Of a stretch of DNA of 64,000 nucleotides, positions 24,461 to 35,916 are shown one piece after another. The notes beneath the pieces are model-generated. The model saw nothing but the letters and a program-made list of their open reading frames with translations. It was not told the origin of the DNA and ran no database searches. The stretch spans positions 1,426,001-1,490,000 of the forward strand of contig NZ_CP110396.1 of assembly GCF_029910215.1 (NCBI RefSeq), in the 5' to 3' direction. This stretch comes from Paraburkholderia sp. D15. GTDB lineage: Bacteria > Pseudomonadota > Gammaproteobacteria > Burkholderiales > Burkholderiaceae. A program made the translations under genes and the position numbers. How positions within the stretch are numbered: the first letter of the stretch is position 1; the number at the start of each line of letters is the position of its first letter.

Positions 24461-24488
24461 ATCGCCACCTCTTCCGACAGGAATGACG

Positions 24489-26039
24489 ATGACCCTCGAC
24501 TGGCCGACGATTCGCAATGGCAATGCCGACGCACTGCACGATACGACGATCGACGTAACGGGCTGGATGATTCCACTGGACCCGCACGCCGCCGCGGTCG
24601 ATTACTTCCTGCTCAGCGCGGACGAACCCTGTTGCGGCGGTTGCGTGCCGCGCAATCCGGCGGCATCGATCGAGGTTTATGCGGCCGCGCCGTTCGCGCC
24701 GCAAGCGGATGCGCTGACGGTGCGAGGCCGTCTGGTGCGGCTGGTCGACGATCCGGCGGGGTGGCGTTATCGCTTGATCGAGGCGCGGGTGCTGGGGCAA
24801 ACGGCGGCGGAAGCGGAAGCGGACAACGCGGCGCATCGGGCAACGGAAGCGCCGCCGCGCGCGTTCAGCCGGCGCGCGTTTCTTGCGTCCGGCGCGGCCT
24901 TGGGATTGGCGGCGTGCGCGCCGGGCCGGTTTGGCAGCTATACCGAAGCGGAAGCAGAAACAGAAACGCATGGGTCGCCCGGGTCGGGAACGCGAGCGAC
25001 GGATCAACACGCGGCGTCCGCCGCATCCACTGACGACGCCCCCGCGCCCACATGGCAGCCGCCTGCCGGCACCTTCACCATCGACATGCACAGCCACGCC
25101 GGCCGCGTGACCGTCTCGCGCGATCCGGCGATCGGCGCGCGCCGTCCGTTTCTGCCGCTTGCCGCGCCGATGCGCACGGGCGGCATGCACGTCGTCTGTC
25201 TCGCGATCGTCACGGACACGACCTGCACGCGTGTGTCGGATAACCGCAAACGCTTCGAAGCGTGGCGCGATCCGCAACCCGGCGAGTTGTACGCGCTCGG
25301 TCAAACCGAATTCGACCGCGTGCATCACCTGATCGAGCGCGAGCGCTTGCAGGTGGTGACGAACGCCGCCGCTCTGAACGCCAACGCTTCGCAGGGTCCG
25401 TGCGCGATCGTCGCCGCCGAGGGCGGGGATTTTCTCGAAGGCCAGGTGGATCGCGTCGATGAAGCGTACACGCAGCATCAGTTGCGGCATCTGCAACTCA
25501 CGCACTATCGCGTGAACGAACTCGGCGATATTCAAACCGAACCGCCGGTGCACGGCGGACTGACCGATGCCGGCGCCGACGTGATACGGCGTTGCAACGC
25601 GCTCGGCATCGTCGTGGATGTCGCGCACGGCACCTACGATCTGGTGAAGCGCGCCGCCGATACATCTATCAAGCCGCTCGTGCTGTCGCATTCGGCGCTG
25701 GCCACGCATCCTTCGTCGCGCAGCCGGCTCATCACGCCCGATCACGCGCGCGTGATTGCGGGCACGGGCGGCGTGATCGGCGTGTGGCCGAGTTCAGGCT
25801 CGTTCAAGGATCTGCACGGCATGGCCATGGGCATCAAGCGGATGGCGGACGTGGTCGGCGTCGAACATGTCGGGCTGGGCAGCGACATGCTCGGTTTCAT
25901 TTCGCCGCCGGTGTTCCGCAGCTACGAGCAGTTGCCGGATCTGGCGAGCGCGTTGCTGCTCGCCGGATTCACGCCGGACGAAGTGGGTGCGATTCTGGGT
26001 GGAAATTACCGGCGGGTGTTCGCGGCTTCGGTGGGATGA
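24489..26039 (+). CDS. M19 membrane dipeptidase with N-terminal DUF3299-like domain and internal Tat/lipoprotein signal
   Basis: The 516-residue frame has two parts. Residues 1-105 resemble DUF3299-type domains (DVTGWMIPLDP, DYFLLSADEPCCGGC, then LTVRGRLVRLVDDP). Residues 195-516 are an M19 dipeptidase with metal ligands in TFTIDMHSHAG (H201, H203), AAEGGDFLEG, LTHYRVNELGD and VLSHSALATHP; the family hydrolyses dipeptides, often with D-residues. Between them lies SRRAFLASGAALGLAAC: a twin-arginine motif (R128, R129) with a lipobox ending at C143, followed by a Glu/Thr/Ser linker. A signal 127 residues inside a protein is odd. GTG 24789, behind a GAGG site, would give a normal Tat lipoprotein of about 416 residues, so two products are possible. 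ATG 24489 has better ribosome-site spacing than ATG 24483. Confidence 0.82.
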   Translation: MTLDWPTIRNGNADALHDTTIDVTGWMIPLDPHAAAVDYFLLSADEPCCGGCVPRNPAASIEVYAAAPFAPQADALTVRGRLVRLVDDPAGWRYRLIEARVLGQTAAEAEADNAAHRATEAPPRAFSRRAFLASGAALGLAACAPGRFGSYTEAEAETETHGSPGSGTRATDQHAASAASTDDAPAPTWQPPAGTFTIDMHSHAGRVTVSRDPAIGARRPFLPLAAPMRTGGMHVVCLAIVTDTTCTRVSDNRKRFEAWRDPQPGELYALGQTEFDRVHHLIERERLQVVTNAAALNANASQGPCAIVAAEGGDFLEGQVDRVDEAYTQHQLRHLQLTHYRVNELGDIQTEPPVHGGLTDAGADVIRRCNALGIVVDVAHGTYDLVKRAADTSIKPLVLSHSALATHPSSRSRLITPDHARVIAGTGGVIGVWPSSGSFKDLHGMAMGIKRMADVVGVEHVGLGSDMLGFISPPVFRSYEQLPDLASALLLAGFTPDEVGAILGGNYRRVFAASVG

Positions 26040-29395: not shown

Positions 29396-29737
29396 ATGTC
29401 GACTGTCACCACCGAATCCGGCCTGAAGTACGAAGATATCGTCGAAGGCACCGGCGCCGAAGCGGTTGCGGGCAAGACCGTCAGCGTGCATTACACCGGC
29501 TGGCTGACCGACGGCCAGAAGTTCGACTCCAGCAAGGACCGCAACGATCCGTTCGCCTTCGTGCTGGGCGGCGGCATGGTCATTAAGGGCTGGGACGAAG
29601 GCGTGCAAGGCATGAAGGTCGGCGGCACGCGCAAGCTGACCATTCCGCCGCAACTCGGCTACGGCGTGCGCGGCGCGGGCGGCGTGATTCCGCCGAATGC
29701 GACGCTCGTGTTCGAAGTCGAACTGCTCGACGTCTGA
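29396..29737 (+). CDS. FKBP-type peptidyl-prolyl isomerase
   Basis: This is a single-domain 113-residue FKBP without a signal peptide, so probably cytoplasmic. Active-site residues are visible: [16 protein letters not shown], then [18 protein letters not shown] (including the V-I-K-G-W core), [10 protein letters not shown] and [16 protein letters not shown]. It catalyses cis-trans isomerisation of Xaa-Pro bonds in protein folding. ATG 29396 has a strong GAGGAG site. An AraC-family gene follows closely. Confidence 0.94.
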
Positions 29738-29753
29738 TCGAGGCACTGCTGTC

Positions 29754-30548
29754 TTGAACCACGCCGCCGTCACCGCTCCCTGCGTTTCGCTGCGCCGCTA
29801 CGGTGCAGTGGAAGCATCGGACGTGCATGACTTCCATCAGGTCGTGCTCGGCCTGGACGGCGCGATGGTGATGGCGGTGGACGGCGTCGCGCAGCAGATC
29901 GACGCCGGGTCCGCGTGGCTGATCCCGGCCGGCGCGCGGCACGACTATGCGGGCATCGGCGAGAACCGGCAGTTGGTGCTGGACTTGCCGGCCGCATCGC
30001 TGGCGGTGCCAGAGCGGCTGTTCGACCGTGCACGAGCCGTGCATGTCGATGCGTCGTTGACTCAGCTGGTGTACCGCATCGCGGCGCGCGCCACCGGCGG
30101 CGCCGTGGCGGGCGACGATCTCGACGCCCGTCGTTTTCACTGGGACGCCGCGGCTCGTCTGGGCGCCGCGTTGATCGCCGACGACGGCGCCGTCTCCGGC
30201 ACGCAGGCGCCGGGCGCGGGACTCGACTTCGCGCGCATCGACCGGTGGCTACGCGCGCATCTGTCGGAACCGTTGCGAATGGCCGACCTCGCCGCGCACT
30301 GCGGCTTCGGCGTGCGGCGCTTCCATCAGCTTTTTATCGAAGCGTTCGGCGAAACGCCGCATCGCTATCTGCAGCGTCTGCGGCTCGATACGTCGCTCGC
30401 GCTGCTCGCCGACCCGCGTCGGTCGTTGACCGGCATCGCACTGGATATCGGCTTCGGCGATCAGAGCGCTTTCACGCACGCGTTCACGCGGCGTTTCGGT
30501 TTGGCGCCTGGACAGTGGCGCGCCACCCGCGATCGGCACCACGCCTGA
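29754..30548 (+). CDS. AraC family transcriptional regulator
   Basis: The 264-residue protein has an N-terminal cupin-like sensor domain (LDGAMVMAVDGVAQQIDAG, then AWLIPAGARHDYAGIGENRQ). The C-terminal AraC double helix-turn-helix is MADLAAHCGFGVRRFHQLF and GIALDIGFGDQSAFTHAFTR, followed by the family end FGLAPGQWR. The start is uncertain: I place it at TTG 29754, 17 bp after the FKBP stop, because it follows a GAGG-like site and gives a complete cupin; a GTG a few codons later is also possible. It could be co-transcribed with the FKBP gene. The ligand is unknown. Confidence 0.82.
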   Translation: MNHAAVTAPCVSLRRYGAVEASDVHDFHQVVLGLDGAMVMAVDGVAQQIDAGSAWLIPAGARHDYAGIGENRQLVLDLPAASLAVPERLFDRARAVHVDASLTQLVYRIAARATGGAVAGDDLDARRFHWDAAARLGAALIADDGAVSGTQAPGAGLDFARIDRWLRAHLSEPLRMADLAAHCGFGVRRFHQLFIEAFGETPHRYLQRLRLDTSLALLADPRRSLTGIALDIGFGDQSAFTHAFTRRFGLAPGQWRATRDRHHA

Positions 30549-30930
30549 AAGCCTGACCACCTGAACGCCTGACCTGTTTGTCGTTGATCTCCCGCGGTTA
30601 AAACGGACTTACGACGCTGCGTCCCTCGCATGCGTCATCGCGTCGCACGCATCGAACAAAACCGCATCGTCGTGTCGCGGCTCGCGTCGTCCAGATTCAT
30701 CTCTCTCATTCGGCTGGAAGCCCTTTCGCATCGGCGCTTTTTACGCGCGGCGCGTCGTCGCGCGCGATGGCCGACCGGTGCGCATGCAACGATTCGATGA
30801 CAAATCGTGCTCGCAGAATCATCAGAAGAGAGTGAACCTTACTCTTTGCTTTCAGACATAGCTAAGGGATGCGTACTATTTCCAGATTCTCCGGACGCAC
30901 TCCATTCTCAACTTTCTTTCGAGGTAAGCA
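30549..30930. other. non-coding gap upstream of the GCVS peptide gene
   Basis: These 382 bp separate the AraC gene from the GCVS-repeat peptide gene. I see no convincing gene. A weak promoter candidate is TTCAGA (30851-30856) with TACTAT (30874-30879), 17 bp apart, about 50 bp before the peptide ATG. A small dyad (ACGATT...AATCGT, about 30788-30807) lies upstream. The last 90 bp are noticeably more AT-rich than the rest, as expected for a promoter region. Confidence 0.4.
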
Positions 30931-31113
30931 ATGCAAACTCTCGTTCATAAAATTGCTCAAGACTCCGTATGGAACAAATGGGTCTCCGCCAACTCGTCCC
31001 AGACGGACGGCTGCGTGTCAGGCACCAAGGAAGGATGCGTTTCGTCGGCGAAGGCTGGTTGCGTTTCGATTGCCGGCACCGCGCCACTGCGCAAGACCGG
31101 TTGCGTGAGCTAA
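30931..31113 (+). CDS. 60-residue peptide with four GCVS repeats; candidate RiPP precursor
   Basis: The peptide has a leader-like N-terminus of 25 residues (MQTLVHKIAQDSVWNKW...), then a Cys-rich region with GCVS at residues 27-30, 35-38, 43-46 and 57-60; the last repeat is the exact C-terminus. The first three are 8 residues apart (DGCVSGTK, EGCVSSAK, AGCVSIAG). The repeats use different codons (Gly GGC/GGA/GGT; Val GTG/GTT; Ser TCA/TCG/AGC), so the amino-acid motif is conserved rather than the DNA freshly duplicated. A strong GAGGT site precedes the ATG. The genes after it encode an adenylate-forming enzyme, a GRDP-like protein and an exporter. I know no characterised family with this motif. 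A metal-binding peptide is an alternative to a modified natural product. Confidence 0.75.
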   Translation: MQTLVHKIAQDSVWNKWVSANSSQTDGCVSGTKEGCVSSAKAGCVSIAGTAPLRKTGCVS

Positions 31114-31133
31114 CCGGATTCCGTCGAATCCGG
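31114..31133 (+). terminator. hairpin abutting the peptide stop codon
   Basis: CCGGATTC (31114-31121) and GAATCCGG (31126-31133) form a perfect 8-bp stem with a 4-nt loop, starting at the base after TAA. No U-tract follows. It may stabilise the peptide mRNA or attenuate read-through. Confidence 0.5.
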
Positions 31134-31189
31134 GCGGCCGCCAGCACCAGGACGCACCGCGCAGACAGGCGCTAGCGGCCGCTTATCGA

Positions 31190-31212
31190 ACCGGTCCTGA
31201 TCGAGGACCGGT
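31190..31212 (+). terminator. second hairpin between peptide gene and adenylating enzyme gene
   Basis: ACCGGTCCT (31190-31198) and AGGACCGGT (31204-31212) form a perfect 9-bp stem with a 5-nt loop, 35 bp before the next ATG. There is no clear U-tract. A partial terminator or processing site here would keep peptide expression above enzyme expression, as seen in many RiPP operons. Confidence 0.5.
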
Positions 31213-31247
31213 CTTCACCGACATCGCAGTCTGGTCATGGAGCACGC

Positions 31248-32510
31248 ATGAATACTCAGCCGACCGCCGGCATGATCGAGCAGGTCAAGGACATTCCGAT
31301 CTATCGACAGTCGATCGCGCAAGGTTATTTTCCGATTCTGGAAAAGCCCGGGATCGCGCAGGACTTTCCCGCCAACTGGATGACGCCGCGTCTGGCACAC
31401 GCGCTTGCAACCGGCGAAGCCGAGTTTGTTCTTTCGACCGGTACGCATCACGCCAGAATGCAGATCATCCGGCCGCCGTATTTCCTGCTGAATTCGTATT
31501 ACAGGCTGTGGAGCGATCATCCCGACATCGCGTTCACGTGGGACCAGCAGTGTCAGCGCGTGTCGCTCACCACGGTACTCGCCACCGAGCATGTGATACG
31601 GGTCAACAGCCGGAAACATGACGGCACTCGCGGCCAGAAGCCGGACTCGCAGGCCATGCGTCGACTCGATGCGCGCACCTCGTATCTCAATCAGAAGCTC
31701 GATCCCGTGCACTGGGACCGTGCGGATATCGAGCGCATGCTCGATGAAATCGACGCGGCACGGCGTTCTCATCCGCATGGTTTTTATCATCTGGATTGTT
31801 CGAGTTATCACCTCGCGCACTTCGTGCTGAAGGTCGCCGCCTATGGGCTAAAGGAGCGCTTCCCTCAACCCGCGAGCATCATCCACGCTTACGAGTACAC
31901 GCCGGCCAACGTCAGGCAATTCCTGCAAGCACACTTTAGTTGTCCGCTCATCGATCTCTTCGGCAGCACGGAACTCGGCTACCTCTACTACAGCGACCGG
32001 CACGGCCGCTATCTGCCATATCTCGACGACATGCAACTGGAACTCGTGCCATTCGAGACGAGCCGTTCGATCTTCAGCCTGATCGTGTCGAGTGTGCGCA
32101 ATCCGTATATGCCGCTGATCCGCTACCGTTCCGGCGATTGCGTTCAGACAGCCGGCAACGCGTTGGACCCCACAAAAATCGTCCGATTCTGCGGCCGCGA
32201 GAAAGAGATTCTCCGCACTCGAAACGGCATGCTGTCGCACGCCGATTTCGACGATCTGATTCGCGCCGCTTCGCCGAACGTTTTCGTCTACCAGTTGCGC
32301 ACGCAAGCATCGGCGTGCGCGCATCTGCATTACACGACGTTCGATGGCGCGCCGCTAGACCAACAGGAAACGGCGAATCTCGAAGCACGCCTTCGCCAGG
32401 CAACCGGCCTCGATTGCCGCGCGACGCATCGCGCTTGCATCGACATCGGCAAGTCAGGCAAATACGCGTGGCTTGCGGCAACGACGGACGTCACGCTTCG
32501 CACAACCTGA
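31248..32510 (+). CDS. adenylate-forming enzyme, PaaK / F390-synthetase-like
   Basis: The 420-residue protein has the layout of the phenylacetate-CoA ligase-like branch of the ANL superfamily: FGSTELGYLYYS (F238-E242, the Y/F-G-x-T-E motif), IRYRSGDCVQ (D297, ATP ribose-binding position), VRFCGREKEILRTRNGMLS (hinge region) and a lysine-containing C-terminus (IDIGKSGKYAWLA). The usual Ser/Thr/Gly phosphate loop is altered to FVLSTGTHHARMQII (residues 60-74), lacking the normal T-G-K-P. It should activate a carboxylate as an acyl-adenylate; whether it makes a CoA thioester, an ester or an amide is unknown. ATG 31248 has a good GGAG site. It lies between a repeat peptide gene and a GRDP-like gene, so the peptide C-terminus or an acyl group for its Cys/Ser is a plausible substrate (inference). 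Confidence 0.8.
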   Translation: MNTQPTAGMIEQVKDIPIYRQSIAQGYFPILEKPGIAQDFPANWMTPRLAHALATGEAEFVLSTGTHHARMQIIRPPYFLLNSYYRLWSDHPDIAFTWDQQCQRVSLTTVLATEHVIRVNSRKHDGTRGQKPDSQAMRRLDARTSYLNQKLDPVHWDRADIERMLDEIDAARRSHPHGFYHLDCSSYHLAHFVLKVAAYGLKERFPQPASIIHAYEYTPANVRQFLQAHFSCPLIDLFGSTELGYLYYSDRHGRYLPYLDDMQLELVPFETSRSIFSLIVSSVRNPYMPLIRYRSGDCVQTAGNALDPTKIVRFCGREKEILRTRNGMLSHADFDDLIRAASPNVFVYQLRTQASACAHLHYTTFDGAPLDQQETANLEARLRQATGLDCRATHRACIDIGKSGKYAWLAATTDVTLRTT

Positions 32511-32536
32511 CCACCCTCCCGCCACGAGGACATCCC

Positions 32537-33085
32537 ATGCTTTCGACGCACTCCGCTTCAGCGGTCGACGCCAACGCATTGCTCGGCCGCGAACTGCATT
32601 CCGAAGTCATTCGCCATTTCACGCGACACCCCAGCGCATCGCCGGACGACGCAGAACGTCAATTGCTCGAATGTCTGCGTTACCTCTATCTGATCTCCAG
32701 ACACCGCGAACGGCTCAGCGGTCTCTTTTTGCCGGTCGAACAGCAGATCGACGAAGTCTGGCATTACCTCATTCTGCAGACACGTGAATACCGCACGCTC
32801 TGCGAAGAGCGTCTGCCTGGTGGCTTCTTTATCGAGCATCGCAGTTGTCCGTATTCGGACTATCGGCAAACGCCGAGTCGTGAAGAACTGATCGAGCAGG
32901 CGCTGCGATGGTTGCCGCTGTATCGCGAATCCTTCGGTCCATTCGACGAAGCCGCGTTGCGGCATTGGACCATGCCGCGTTTCCTGCGCGACGAGTTGGG
33001 CTTCTCGCTTGCCGATATCGCGGGCGTTGGAGAGGTTGCGGAGGTTGCGGCATTCACGCAACCTGAAATCAGCCGGTCCGTTTGA
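32537..33085 (+). CDS. GRDP-like (glycine-rich-domain-protein-like) small protein
   Basis: This 182-residue protein contains the GRDP-like (DUF1399-type) signature EQQIDEVWHYLILQTREY (D72, W75, H76), followed by a Cys (C89) and GGFFIEHR (H101) and a later Y-x-x-Y pattern. The family is best known from plant and fungal glycine-rich proteins and has no established biochemical role. The conserved D, W-H, C and H could form a metal or active site. ATG 32537 has a good GAGGA site. It starts 26 bp after the adenylating enzyme and its end abuts the MFS gene, so it belongs to the same operon. A peptide-modifying or carrier role is inference from context. Confidence 0.72.
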   Translation: MLSTHSASAVDANALLGRELHSEVIRHFTRHPSASPDDAERQLLECLRYLYLISRHRERLSGLFLPVEQQIDEVWHYLILQTREYRTLCEERLPGGFFIEHRSCPYSDYRQTPSREELIEQALRWLPLYRESFGPFDEAALRHWTMPRFLRDELGFSLADIAGVGEVAEVAAFTQPEISRSV

Positions 33086-33096
33086 ACGCAGCCGCG

Positions 33097-34572
33097 ATGT
33101 CAGACACTCGCGAATCCCTGCCGCTCGCGTGCGGACGTCAACCTGACGCGGCGCGGGCCAACGGCCTGGCGCTCGCCGTCCTGCTGGCCTGTCAGGCGAT
33201 GCTCGTCATCGACGGCACAGTCGTCTACGCAGCGCTGCCGGCTCTGCGCGCCGACCTTGGCCTTGCGCGCGCGGATCTGTCGTGGGTGCAGAACGCGTAC
33301 ATGCTGACCTTCGGCGGCTTCATTCTGCTGGGCGCTCGCGTCGGCGACCTCCTCGGACATCGCCGTATATTCGTTGCCGCTAGCGCGGCGTTCGTGTTGG
33401 CGTCGATTACCGGCGGCATCGCGCAATCCGTGCAGGGGTTGCTGATCGCGCGCGCCGCGCAAGGCGTCGCGGGCGCATTCGCCGCGCCGTCGGCGCTCGC
33501 GCTGCTGATGCTGCTGTTTCCGGCGGGCGCCGCGCGCGTGCGTGCGATCGGCCTCTACACCGCGGTGTCGGGCGGCGGCAGCGCCGTCGGCCTGGTGCTC
33601 GGCGGCGCGCTGACCGATCTGGCCTCGTGGCGCTCGGTGCTGTTCATCAACGTCCCGATCGGCGTGGTGTTGCTCGCATTCGCGCCGCGCTGTCTACCTG
33701 GCGCGCCACGTAATCACGGACGGTTCGACGTGATGGGCGCGTCGACCGTGACGCTCGGCATGAGCCTTCTGGTGTACGCGTTGATACGCTGCGTGCACGA
33801 CGGTGCGGGCGATCCGGGCGTCGTCGTGTCGTTCGTCGCGGCGGGATTGTCGCTTGCCGCTTTCGTTTTTATCGAAGGACGCGTCGCGCAACCCATCACG
33901 CCGCTCTCGCTTTTCGCCGACCTGCAACGCTCAGGTGCGCTGGCGAGCCGGATGCTGCTGATCGGCGGCATGCTCGGTACGTTCTTCTTCCTGACGCAGT
34001 ATGTGCAAGGTGCGCTCGGATTCAGCGCGTTGCGCGCGGGTCTCGCATTCCTGCCGCTATCGGTGACGCAGTGTCTGATGGTGATCTACGGCGTGCCGCG
34101 GCTCATGCCTCGGCTTGGCGCCAAGGGACTATTGACCGGGGGATTGTCGATCGCGGCGATCGGCATGATCGCACTCGGCAAGATACCGGCCAATGCCGGC
34201 TTTTTCGCCGATCTGGCATGGCCCGTGTTCCTGCTGGGACTCGGCACCGGCGCGGCGCTGGTTCCATTGACGACGGCCGGCATCGCCGGCGTCGGGGCCG
34301 GTCAAGCGGGCGCGGCTTCCGGCCTCGTCAACGCGACGCATTATCTGGGCGGCGCGACGGGGACGGCGCTTATCGTTCTTATCGTCGAGTCCGCTCTCAA
34401 CCGTTCGGCTGGCGTTCGCGAGTTTGGCGGACCCGCATCCGGTTCACACACCAAGGCCGAACTCGCCCAAGCCCTCTCTGTTGCGGCGACCACATCCGCC
34501 GCGTTCCTTGGATTGGCGCTCGTCATCGTGCTGGTCACGATGCGCCGTCACGGCGCGCAACCGCCGGCATGA
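33097..34572 (+). CDS. MFS drug/peptide exporter, DHA2 (14-TM) family
   Basis: This 491-residue integral membrane protein shows DHA2/EmrB-QacA features: TM1 with VIDGTVVYAALPALRADLGL, motif A-like GARVGDLLGHRR, motif C GGGSAVGLVLGGALTDL, and about 14 hydrophobic segments overall. It would export a small molecule by proton antiport. ATG 33097 is used; an in-frame TTG at 33082 would overlap the preceding stop codon and is also possible. As the last gene of the GCVS cluster it probably exports or confers immunity to the cluster product. It is followed by a short hairpin and the convergent metZ. Confidence 0.88.
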   Translation: MSDTRESLPLACGRQPDAARANGLALAVLLACQAMLVIDGTVVYAALPALRADLGLARADLSWVQNAYMLTFGGFILLGARVGDLLGHRRIFVAASAAFVLASITGGIAQSVQGLLIARAAQGVAGAFAAPSALALLMLLFPAGAARVRAIGLYTAVSGGGSAVGLVLGGALTDLASWRSVLFINVPIGVVLLAFAPRCLPGAPRNHGRFDVMGASTVTLGMSLLVYALIRCVHDGAGDPGVVVSFVAAGLSLAAFVFIEGRVAQPITPLSLFADLQRSGALASRMLLIGGMLGTFFFLTQYVQGALGFSALRAGLAFLPLSVTQCLMVIYGVPRLMPRLGAKGLLTGGLSIAAIGMIALGKIPANAGFFADLAWPVFLLGLGTGAALVPLTTAGIAGVGAGQAGAASGLVNATHYLGGATGTALIVLIVESALNRSAGVREFGGPASGSHTKAELAQALSVAATTSAAFLGLALVIVLVTMRRHGAQPPA

Positions 34573-34600
34573 GCGCAGCGATCGGGCAGCGGCAACCTGC

Positions 34601-34619
34601 CGTGAACGAACAGTTCACG
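34601..34619. terminator. short hairpin between convergent MFS gene and metZ
   Basis: CGTGAAC (34601-34607) and GTTCACG (34613-34619) form a 7-bp stem with a 5-nt loop in the 67-bp convergent gap. No U-tract is present, so the call is weak. Confidence 0.35.
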
Positions 34620-34639
34620 CACCGCCGCCCTCCCAGCGT

Positions 34640-35830
34640 TTAGCCCGCGAGTCCGCGCGCCAGATCGCCGCGGATATCGCCCGCGTTTTCCAGACCCACC
34701 GCCAACCGGATCAAGCCTTCGGTGATGCCCGCCGCCGCGCGCGCTTCCGGCGTCACACGGCCATGCGTGGTTGTCGCCGGATGCGTGATGGTGGTGCGCG
34801 TATCGCCGAGGTTGCCGGTGATCGAGCAGATCTTCGTGCTGTCGATCACGCGCCATGCGTTCGCGCGCATCTGTTCCGGCGTCTCGCCCTTCAGTTCGAA
34901 CGACAGGATCGCGCCGCCCGCCTTCTGCTGACGCTTCGCCAACTCGTGCTGCGGATGCGATTCCAGCCCCGGATAGAACACGCGATTCACGGCCGGATGC
35001 TGCTCCAGCCAGCGCGCGATCTCGAGCGCGTTCGCCGACTGCTTCTCGACGCGCAGCGACAGCGTTTCCATGCCCTTGAGCAGCACCCACGCATTGAACG
35101 CGGACAACGTCGGCCCGGCGCTACGCACGAACGGAAACACTTTTTCCATGATGAACTGCTTCGAGCCGACCAGCGCGCCGCCAAGTACGCGCCCCTGACC
35201 GTCGAGGAACTTGGTGGCCGAATGCATGACGACGTCCGCGCCGAATTTCAGCGGCTGTTGCAGCGCGGGGCTGCAGAAGCAGTTATCGACCACGAACAGC
35301 GCGTTCGCGGCTTTGGCGATCTTGCCGATCGCTTCGATGTCGGACACTTCCGTCAGCGGATTCGACGGCGTTTCGAGGAAGAACATCTTCGTCTCGGGAC
35401 GCACGGCGTTTTTCCACGCATCCAGATCAGACGGATCGACGAACGTGGTCGTAATGCCGAACTTCGTGAAGATCTGCGAGAACATGCCGAGCGTCGAGCC
35501 GAACAGCGCCTGCGAACTCACCAGATGGTCGCCGGCCTGCAATGCGGACATCACCACCGACATGATCGCGGCCATGCCCGAGGCGGTCGCCATGCACGCT
35601 TCGCCGCCTTCGAGCGCGGCGAGCCGGTCCTGGAACATCGTGACCGTCGGGTTGGTGAAGCGCGAATAGGTGTAATAGTCCTCGGATTTCTTGAAGCGCT
35701 CGGCGGCATCCGCGGCGCTCGCGAACACGAAGCTCGAGGTCAGGAAAAGCGCTTCCGAATGTTCGTTGAAGTCGCTGCGCTGGGTGCCCGAGCGGACGGC
35801 CAGCGTGTCGAAGTTCAGGGAGTCGTCCAT
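34640..35830 (-). CDS. metZ: O-succinylhomoserine sulfhydrylase
   Basis: MetZ makes homocysteine from O-succinylhomoserine and sulfide, using PLP. The 396-residue protein has the Cys/Met-metabolism fold: YSRFTNPTVTMFQDRLAALE, the PLP phosphate and ring contacts ATASGMAAIMSVVMSALQAG, FVVDNCFCSPALQQPLKFGA, and the Schiff-base lysine in VMHSATKFLDGQGRVLGG; the end has GLIRLAVGLENAGDI. ATG 35830 gives the normal family start (MDDSLNFDTLAVRSGTQ). Upstream are a probable SAM-II riboswitch and an intrinsic terminator, so expression should fall when S-adenosylmethionine is plentiful. The purF gene lies further upstream, separated by its own hairpin. Confidence 0.93.
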   Translation of the reverse strand: MDDSLNFDTLAVRSGTQRSDFNEHSEALFLTSSFVFASAADAAERFKKSEDYYTYSRFTNPTVTMFQDRLAALEGGEACMATASGMAAIMSVVMSALQAGDHLVSSQALFGSTLGMFSQIFTKFGITTTFVDPSDLDAWKNAVRPETKMFFLETPSNPLTEVSDIEAIGKIAKAANALFVVDNCFCSPALQQPLKFGADVVMHSATKFLDGQGRVLGGALVGSKQFIMEKVFPFVRSAGPTLSAFNAWVLLKGMETLSLRVEKQSANALEIARWLEQHPAVNRVFYPGLESHPQHELAKRQQKAGGAILSFELKGETPEQMRANAWRVIDSTKICSITGNLGDTRTTITHPATTTHGRVTPEARAAAGITEGLIRLAVGLENAGDIRGDLARGLAG

Positions 35831-35916
35831 GTTGGTTCTGGTTTCCAATGTTCCATGGCTGCGTCCGGCGCGTACCGCGTGCGTGAAATCCACGCGGATC
35901 GCCGGACGGCAGCAAC

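Follow-up and report, generated by a model that had tools for sequence, protein, structure and literature searches.

A conserved repeat-peptide cassette with a PaaK-like ligase and a GRDP-like protein in Paraburkholderia is a candidate for undescribed ribosomal natural product biosynthesis

The window analysed here is a 64,000-nucleotide stretch of Paraburkholderia sp. D15, part of contig 2 of an 8.3-Mb genome. It carries a cassette of four head-to-tail genes on the + strand, encoding a short precursor peptide, a PaaK-like adenylate-forming ligase, a GRDP-like protein and a major facilitator superfamily (MFS) exporter, which may make a ribosomally synthesized and post-translationally modified peptide (RiPP). 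The initial annotation had described four co-directional genes with short gaps and all of them are present, with 134 bp between precursor and ligase genes and 26 bp between ligase and GRDP-like genes. The features of the cassette, in window coordinates, are as follows.

30931-31113 (+), precursor peptide gene, 60 aa, ATG start, GAGG upstream
About residues 1-26 of the precursor (+), leader, with L4, W14, W17, N21 and S22 invariant in 81 precursors
31009-31020 (+), GCVS unit 1, residues 27-30, without a preceding Lys
31033-31044 (+), GCVS unit 2, residues 35-38, preceded by K-E
31057-31068 (+), GCVS unit 3, residues 43-46, preceded by K-A
31099-31110 (+), GCVS unit 4, residues 57-60, preceded by K-T and forming the C-terminus
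31190-31212 (+), perfect 9-bp hairpin in the precursor-ligase gap
31248-32510 (+), PaaK-like adenylate-forming ligase, 420 aa, recognised by predicted fold and conserved motifs
32537-33085 (+), GRDP-like protein, 182 aa, all-helical model
33097-34572 (+), DHA2/EmrB-like MFS exporter, 491 aa from the ATG at 33097, or 496 aa if the gene starts at the TTG at 33082

The four GCVS repeats ending at the C-terminus of a 60-residue peptide, as previously claimed, are thus found in the precursor. To place it among its relatives, GTDB genome contigs were scanned with the ligase alignment, which gave 131 relatives; the best 80 of them were kept and, with the window, form a set of 81 loci. In this set, the core unit follows the consensus K-x-G-C-[I/V]-[S/C] and is present in 2-7 copies per precursor, with three copies in 63/81. 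The Lys two positions ahead of the unit Gly is kept in 246/253 units. Since 75/81 precursors terminate in GCIS or GCVS and 254/255 precursor cysteines fall inside GC[IV][SC] units, the repeat pattern is far beyond chance. Precursor starts were assigned by a pattern, so that the first residue carries no evidence. Among 5.8 billion proteins searched, 198 precursors were found at E<=10, and all 120 of those listed carry the W-x2-W-x3-N-S leader. Among these 120, the unit Lys is present in 361/364 units, the fourth unit residue is Ser in 360, Cys in 3 and Phe in 1, and the C-terminus is GCIS or GCVS in 115 precursors. Some family members terminate in GCISR. The occasional replacement of Ser by Cys as the fourth unit residue points to a need for a nucleophile there. 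The same unit residues are encoded by differing codons, and the peptide sequence is conserved across three phyla. The peptide is a short gene-encoded precursor with a conserved leader and a distinct core, as is characteristic of RiPPs.

The link between the peptide and its two neighbouring genes was examined in 199 Streptomyces genomes, drawn evenly, with ligase matches limited to E<=1e-60. The ligase profile matched 28 of them, always with at least 688 bits, and the GRDP-like profile matched the same 28 genomes with at least 259 bits, the next match being at 41 bits. At E<=0.001 the latter profile reaches 65/199 genomes, those beyond the 28 being distant relatives. The precursor profile found these 28 genomes and one more, G377, with at least 71 bits (next match, 22.7); in G377 the match stops 30 bp before the contig end, which leaves no sequence in which to see a ligase gene. 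Loci of this kind lacking the peptide had been named beforehand as an outcome speaking against a peptide cassette. The peptide lies directly 5' of the ligase, on the same strand, in 80/80 kept loci, and it is directly upstream in 28/28 Streptomyces loci that were picked through the ligase only, two sets that overlap partly (G099 is one shared locus). Furthermore, the GRDP-like gene stands 3' of the ligase in the window and in 79/80 loci, the exception (L079) being a contig end. Peptide, ligase and GRDP-like protein travel together, and dedicated enzymes are thereby genetically linked to the precursor, another hallmark of RiPP pathways.

The cassette occurs in soil bacteria belonging to three phyla. 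Besides Streptomyces, carriers are found in Kitasatospora, Amycolatopsis, Kutzneria, Sorangium and Burkholderiaceae. The GRDP-like protein occurs in 3/97 genomes of the window's genus and the ligase in 3/279 genomes of its family, the window's own included in both counts. The ligase was found in 1/286 Actinomycetota genomes, which is the centre genome itself, and a strong GRDP-like match in 1/192 genomes of the class of Sorangium G097, which is G097 itself. Other myxobacteria, namely Melittangium, Cystobacter and Archangium, also supplied relatives of the ligase or of the GRDP-like protein, the search there being for these two proteins. In G586, a 4.1-Mb genome of the same genus, peptide, ligase, GRDP-like and MFS genes lie together at another site, between other genes (L157:3507-7149, - strand), and the precursor carries the units GCVC, GCVC and GCIS. 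The peptide, ligase and GRDP-like genes are present as well in Paraburkholderia G061 (L155).

The predicted fold of the ligase agrees with its earlier description as PaaK-like. In an alignment of 16 ligases, the STGT, FGSTE, RYRSGD, FCGRE and G-x-S-G-K stretches are invariant; we take these to be the adenylation motifs, including the C-terminal Lys. Judged from its structural model, the ligase is a member of the ANL superfamily with a PaaK-like fold. The TIGR02304 label given by the initial annotation did not hold: NCBIfam gave no TIGR02304 match, and its best model, the DVU_1553 AMP-ligase family, scores 29 bits, far below its cut-off of 300. The closest named relatives are from Paraburkholderia, and a midpoint-rooted tree of 42 ligases splits Burkholderiaceae, myxobacteria and Actinomycetota.

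In the GRDP-like protein, residues invariant among 40 aligned sequences include C46, D72, H76, C89, H101 and W144, and the all-helical model matched no solved fold. As regards the family name (GRDP-like, DUF1399), source databases call some relatives 'glycine-rich domain-containing protein'; in the Pfam copy scanned, which lacks PF27765, no GRDP model matched any of the 40 members at E<=1. Nearly all of the 120 relatives listed carry a PF27765 entry. The profile also reaches distant bacterial relatives that keep W-H...C...F-I-H-H or a similar core. Among Actinomycetota, this core is kept in a distant set comprising L127:4805-5353 (-), L129:4798-5325 (-; F-V-H-H), L126:4766-5209 (+), L084:5916-6422 (+) and L085:4963-5472 (-). 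Several of these distant proteins have Cys-bearing C-terminal tails, with helix-turn-helix-type or APH-like genes adjoining, and no PaaK-like ligase was recognised beside the five genes.

The exporter had been assigned to DHA2; it is indeed DHA2/EmrB-like, but its match to TIGR00711 (207 bits) is under the 230-bit cut-off. An MFS match begins 1.7-2.2 kb past the ligase start on the + strand in 58/81 loci, and in two others (L053 and L058) an inverted MFS gene adjoins the GRDP-like gene. The MFS exporter is a frequent, not a constant, partner of the cassette. Within the flanks examined, carbonic anhydrase genes are found in 45/81 loci and SulP genes in 42/81, the latter downstream on the same strand (21), upstream inverted (14), upstream on the same strand (6) or downstream inverted (1); a single inherited layout therefore does not explain their presence. 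At least 11/28 Streptomyces carriers have a SulP homologue no more than 6 kb from the ligase, though such homologues are present in 161/199 of the genomes. A pair of carbonic anhydrase and SulP permease genes recurs near Streptomyces cassettes (for instance at L023:11711-13782, upstream in L009 and downstream in L076), and carbonic anhydrase is also seen in Sorangium L011. One may guess at bicarbonate or sulfate supply, or at self-protection. Beyond these three families, no other gene family was common to most loci.

The cassette sits between an AraC-type gene and metZ, an interval compared with 18 related genomes (L134-L151).

29697-30548, AraC-type gene, 5' flank of the cassette
30549-34639 (no strand), cassette-bearing span from the AraC-type gene to metZ, compared through the spacing of AraC and MetZ matches in the 18 related genomes
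34640-35893 (-), metZ, 3' flank of the cassette

In 7/18 related genomes, the AraC and MetZ matches are only 36-135 bp apart and cassette-free; in 6/18 the spacing is about 0.96-1.0 kb, and in 5/18 metZ fell outside the 1.5 kb examined. No cassette gene was seen in the stretches examined in any of the 18. The four genes of the window thus fill an interval that some relatives have closed. Across the window and these relatives the interval is thus closed, occupied by about 1 kb of other DNA or occupied by the cassette, and it may be a site that accepts inserts. The G+C content is 0.57-0.59 for the first three cassette genes, 0.68 for the MFS gene and 0.64 for the window. None of the four proteins matched a PADLOC defence model at E<=1.

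RiPP operons in which the precursor is produced in larger amounts than the enzymes commonly have a stem after the precursor gene. In the gap between precursor and ligase genes, a stem of at least 8 bp (G-U allowed) was found in 51/81 loci, against 22.2 expected from mononucleotide shuffles, and no such stem in the other 30. The gap of the window folds with a z of -3.6 relative to dinucleotide shuffles. Terminator prediction did not flag the 31190-31212 hairpin, which could possibly be a partial terminator or a processing stem favouring the precursor transcript.

Comparison with known systems revealed partial likenesses. ClxA (closoxazole) and NatL2 (nataxazole) use ATP to form acyl-AMP, and the acyl group is passed to O or N (PMC12519233, PMC7204872). 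The cassette ligase shares its predicted fold with these two enzymes and with AjiA1, also PaaK-like AMP ligases, at 13-18% identity over structural alignments. In the portions of the reports that deal with them, these enzymes join aromatic acids and no ribosomal peptide takes part, whereas the cassette ligase is paired with a precursor and a GRDP-like protein.

Among RiPPs, plesiocin-type graspetides, cyanobactins and fungal dikaritins have repeated cores, and the cassette resembles them in having a leader ahead of similar units whose number varies, an enzyme gene beside the precursor and an exporter. It differs in lacking their enzymes: no ATP-grasp, YcaO, LanM, radical SAM or UstYa-type match was found in the window cassette with Pfam and NCBIfam. 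More generally, none of the class-defining RiPP enzymes (LanB/LanM, YcaO, ATP-grasp, radical SAM, PEARL, ThiF) was seen there; Pfam recognises MFS only, and NCBIfam gives weak AMP-ligase and MFS models. At the other loci, the scan took in ten representative neighbour genes. In pearlins, a ribosomal peptide is the scaffold on which a small molecule is assembled, and the cassette peptide might have a similar role, but the window cassette has a PaaK-like ligase and no lantibiotic-dehydratase-like gene. MccB also brings ATP-dependent adenylation to a ribosomal-peptide pathway, with a ThiF-like fold that differs from the PaaK/ANL fold. No description of the peptide-ligase-GRDP-like trio was found in open-access full-text literature, and we know of no RiPP class with this enzyme set. 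The cassette looks like an undescribed way to a natural product from a ribosomal peptide.

Collectively, conservation, co-occurrence, the insertion site and the intergenic hairpin strongly support a ribosomal-peptide cassette to which the ligase and the GRDP-like protein are dedicated. The earlier proposal of such a cassette thus stands for these two proteins and the peptide, with the MFS exporter as a frequent rather than constant partner. We put the probability of a RiPP-type biosynthetic cassette at about 0.8. That the ligase and the GRDP-like protein would modify each unit, with the MFS pump exporting the product, is a fuller account that we consider reasonably probable, the ANL chemistry of the ligase being inferred from fold and motifs. 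In this account, the precursor would be produced in excess over the enzymes, aided by the hairpin 3' of its gene, and the invariant leader (L-x9-W-x2-W-x3-N-S) would serve to dock it on the ligase, on the GRDP-like protein or on both. The ligase would then use ATP to adenylate an acid, most likely a common carboxylic acid of small size, and, like ClxA and NatL2, would hand on the acyl group with no carrier protein involved. Tentatively, the acyl group could be transferred to the Lys/Cys/Ser trio of each unit, probably via the Cys thiol, with the GRDP-like protein and its invariant Cys and His acting as transferase or partner. Host peptidases would finally cleave the peptide, and the MFS pump, where present, would export the small product; carbonic anhydrase and SulP in Streptomyces could, as a guess, provide self-protection or supply. 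The initial annotation had proposed that the ligase activates the peptide C-terminus or an acyl group for Cys/Ser; action on each unit is preferred here to action at the C-terminus alone, because the unit recurs 2-7 times.

Several observations weigh against this account. No protease gene was seen in the window cassette, and no known activity of the GRDP-like protein was found. The Pfam AMP-binding model is missed by the ligase (best E 0.074, 2/16 members), and the part of its structural model that should form the P-loop, residues 65-70, is of poor quality. Three MFS queries gave no direct downstream + strand match in 23/81 loci, of which L073 and L079 are cut short and the rest were not searched for other transporters; in G061, they matched nothing in 12 kb. 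The last unit is lost or degenerate in L029, L053 and L058, and in P0278, P0339 and P0344; these precursors persist, so not every unit is needed. Finally, the nonsynonymous/synonymous ratio over all pairs, a crude count, is 0.51 for the leader, 0.34 for the first unit and 0.26 for the last, the unit values being biased low since units were chosen by motif.

A more specific version, which we regard as rather doubtful, would make the cassette the first of a new class of RiPPs, its ANL acyl-adenylating enzyme treating the short ribosomal peptide as a thiotemplate with several sites. Each K-x-G-C-[IV]-S unit would be loaded with an acid and processed with the help of a new enzyme family, the GRDP-like protein, all within one mobile cassette of 4 kb.

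Among the alternatives, the one that survives best, though still unlikely, makes the unit cysteines thiol carriers: the ligase would load thioesters, the group so bound would be worked on by the GRDP-like protein or others, and the released and exported product would be a small molecule, the peptide itself being reused or discarded, similar to the pearlin idea but with an ANL loader. The single Cys per unit, with 1/255 Cys outside units, is consistent with it, and so are the absence of a visible carrier-protein gene from the window cassette, a pump that fits a small product and the common habit of ANL ligases of handing acyl groups to a thiol. This would leave the conserved unit Lys and Ser/Cys unexplained, and no release or tailoring enzyme common to most loci was seen. 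A clearly less likely alternative is that the ligase adenylates the carboxylate of the precursor's terminal Ser to give an amide, ester or macrocycle, much as MccB, with its own fold, adenylates the C-terminus of its peptide. The exact GC[IV]S endings counted above (75/81 loci, 115/120 listed precursors) point to it, but the unit is repeated 2-7 times and members ending in GCISR or with a broken last unit persist, for which reason an external acid is preferred over the peptide C-terminus. Least probable is that no natural product is made and that the peptide binds thiols or metals or acts as a regulatory leader, while the two proteins encoded after it, ligase and GRDP-like, belong to another pathway: a short Cys-bearing peptide, frequent 3' hairpins and the carbonic anhydrase and SulP genes recurring nearby in Streptomyces would suit it, but the leader residues are kept across three phyla, differing codons specify the same unit residues, only the MFS, carbonic anhydrase and SulP families are otherwise common to most loci, and nothing but the four genes occupies the gap in the window.

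If the RiPP reading is right, about one in seven of the sampled Streptomyces genomes (28/199), together with some Sorangium and Burkholderiaceae, would carry an overlooked class of ribosomal natural products. A PaaK-like ligase would enter RiPP chemistry, the GRDP-like protein would gain a function, and the minimal four-gene system could be rebuilt in a laboratory host. Should the thiotemplate version apply, it would link ribosomal and nonribosomal logic, ANL enzymes otherwise loading coenzyme A and carrier proteins.

Elsewhere in the window, an open reading frame at 24483-26039 (+) encodes a 518-aa protein that, by look only, we presume to resemble an M19-type dipeptidase; it has a long extra N-terminal part and a signal-like stretch at about residue 130.
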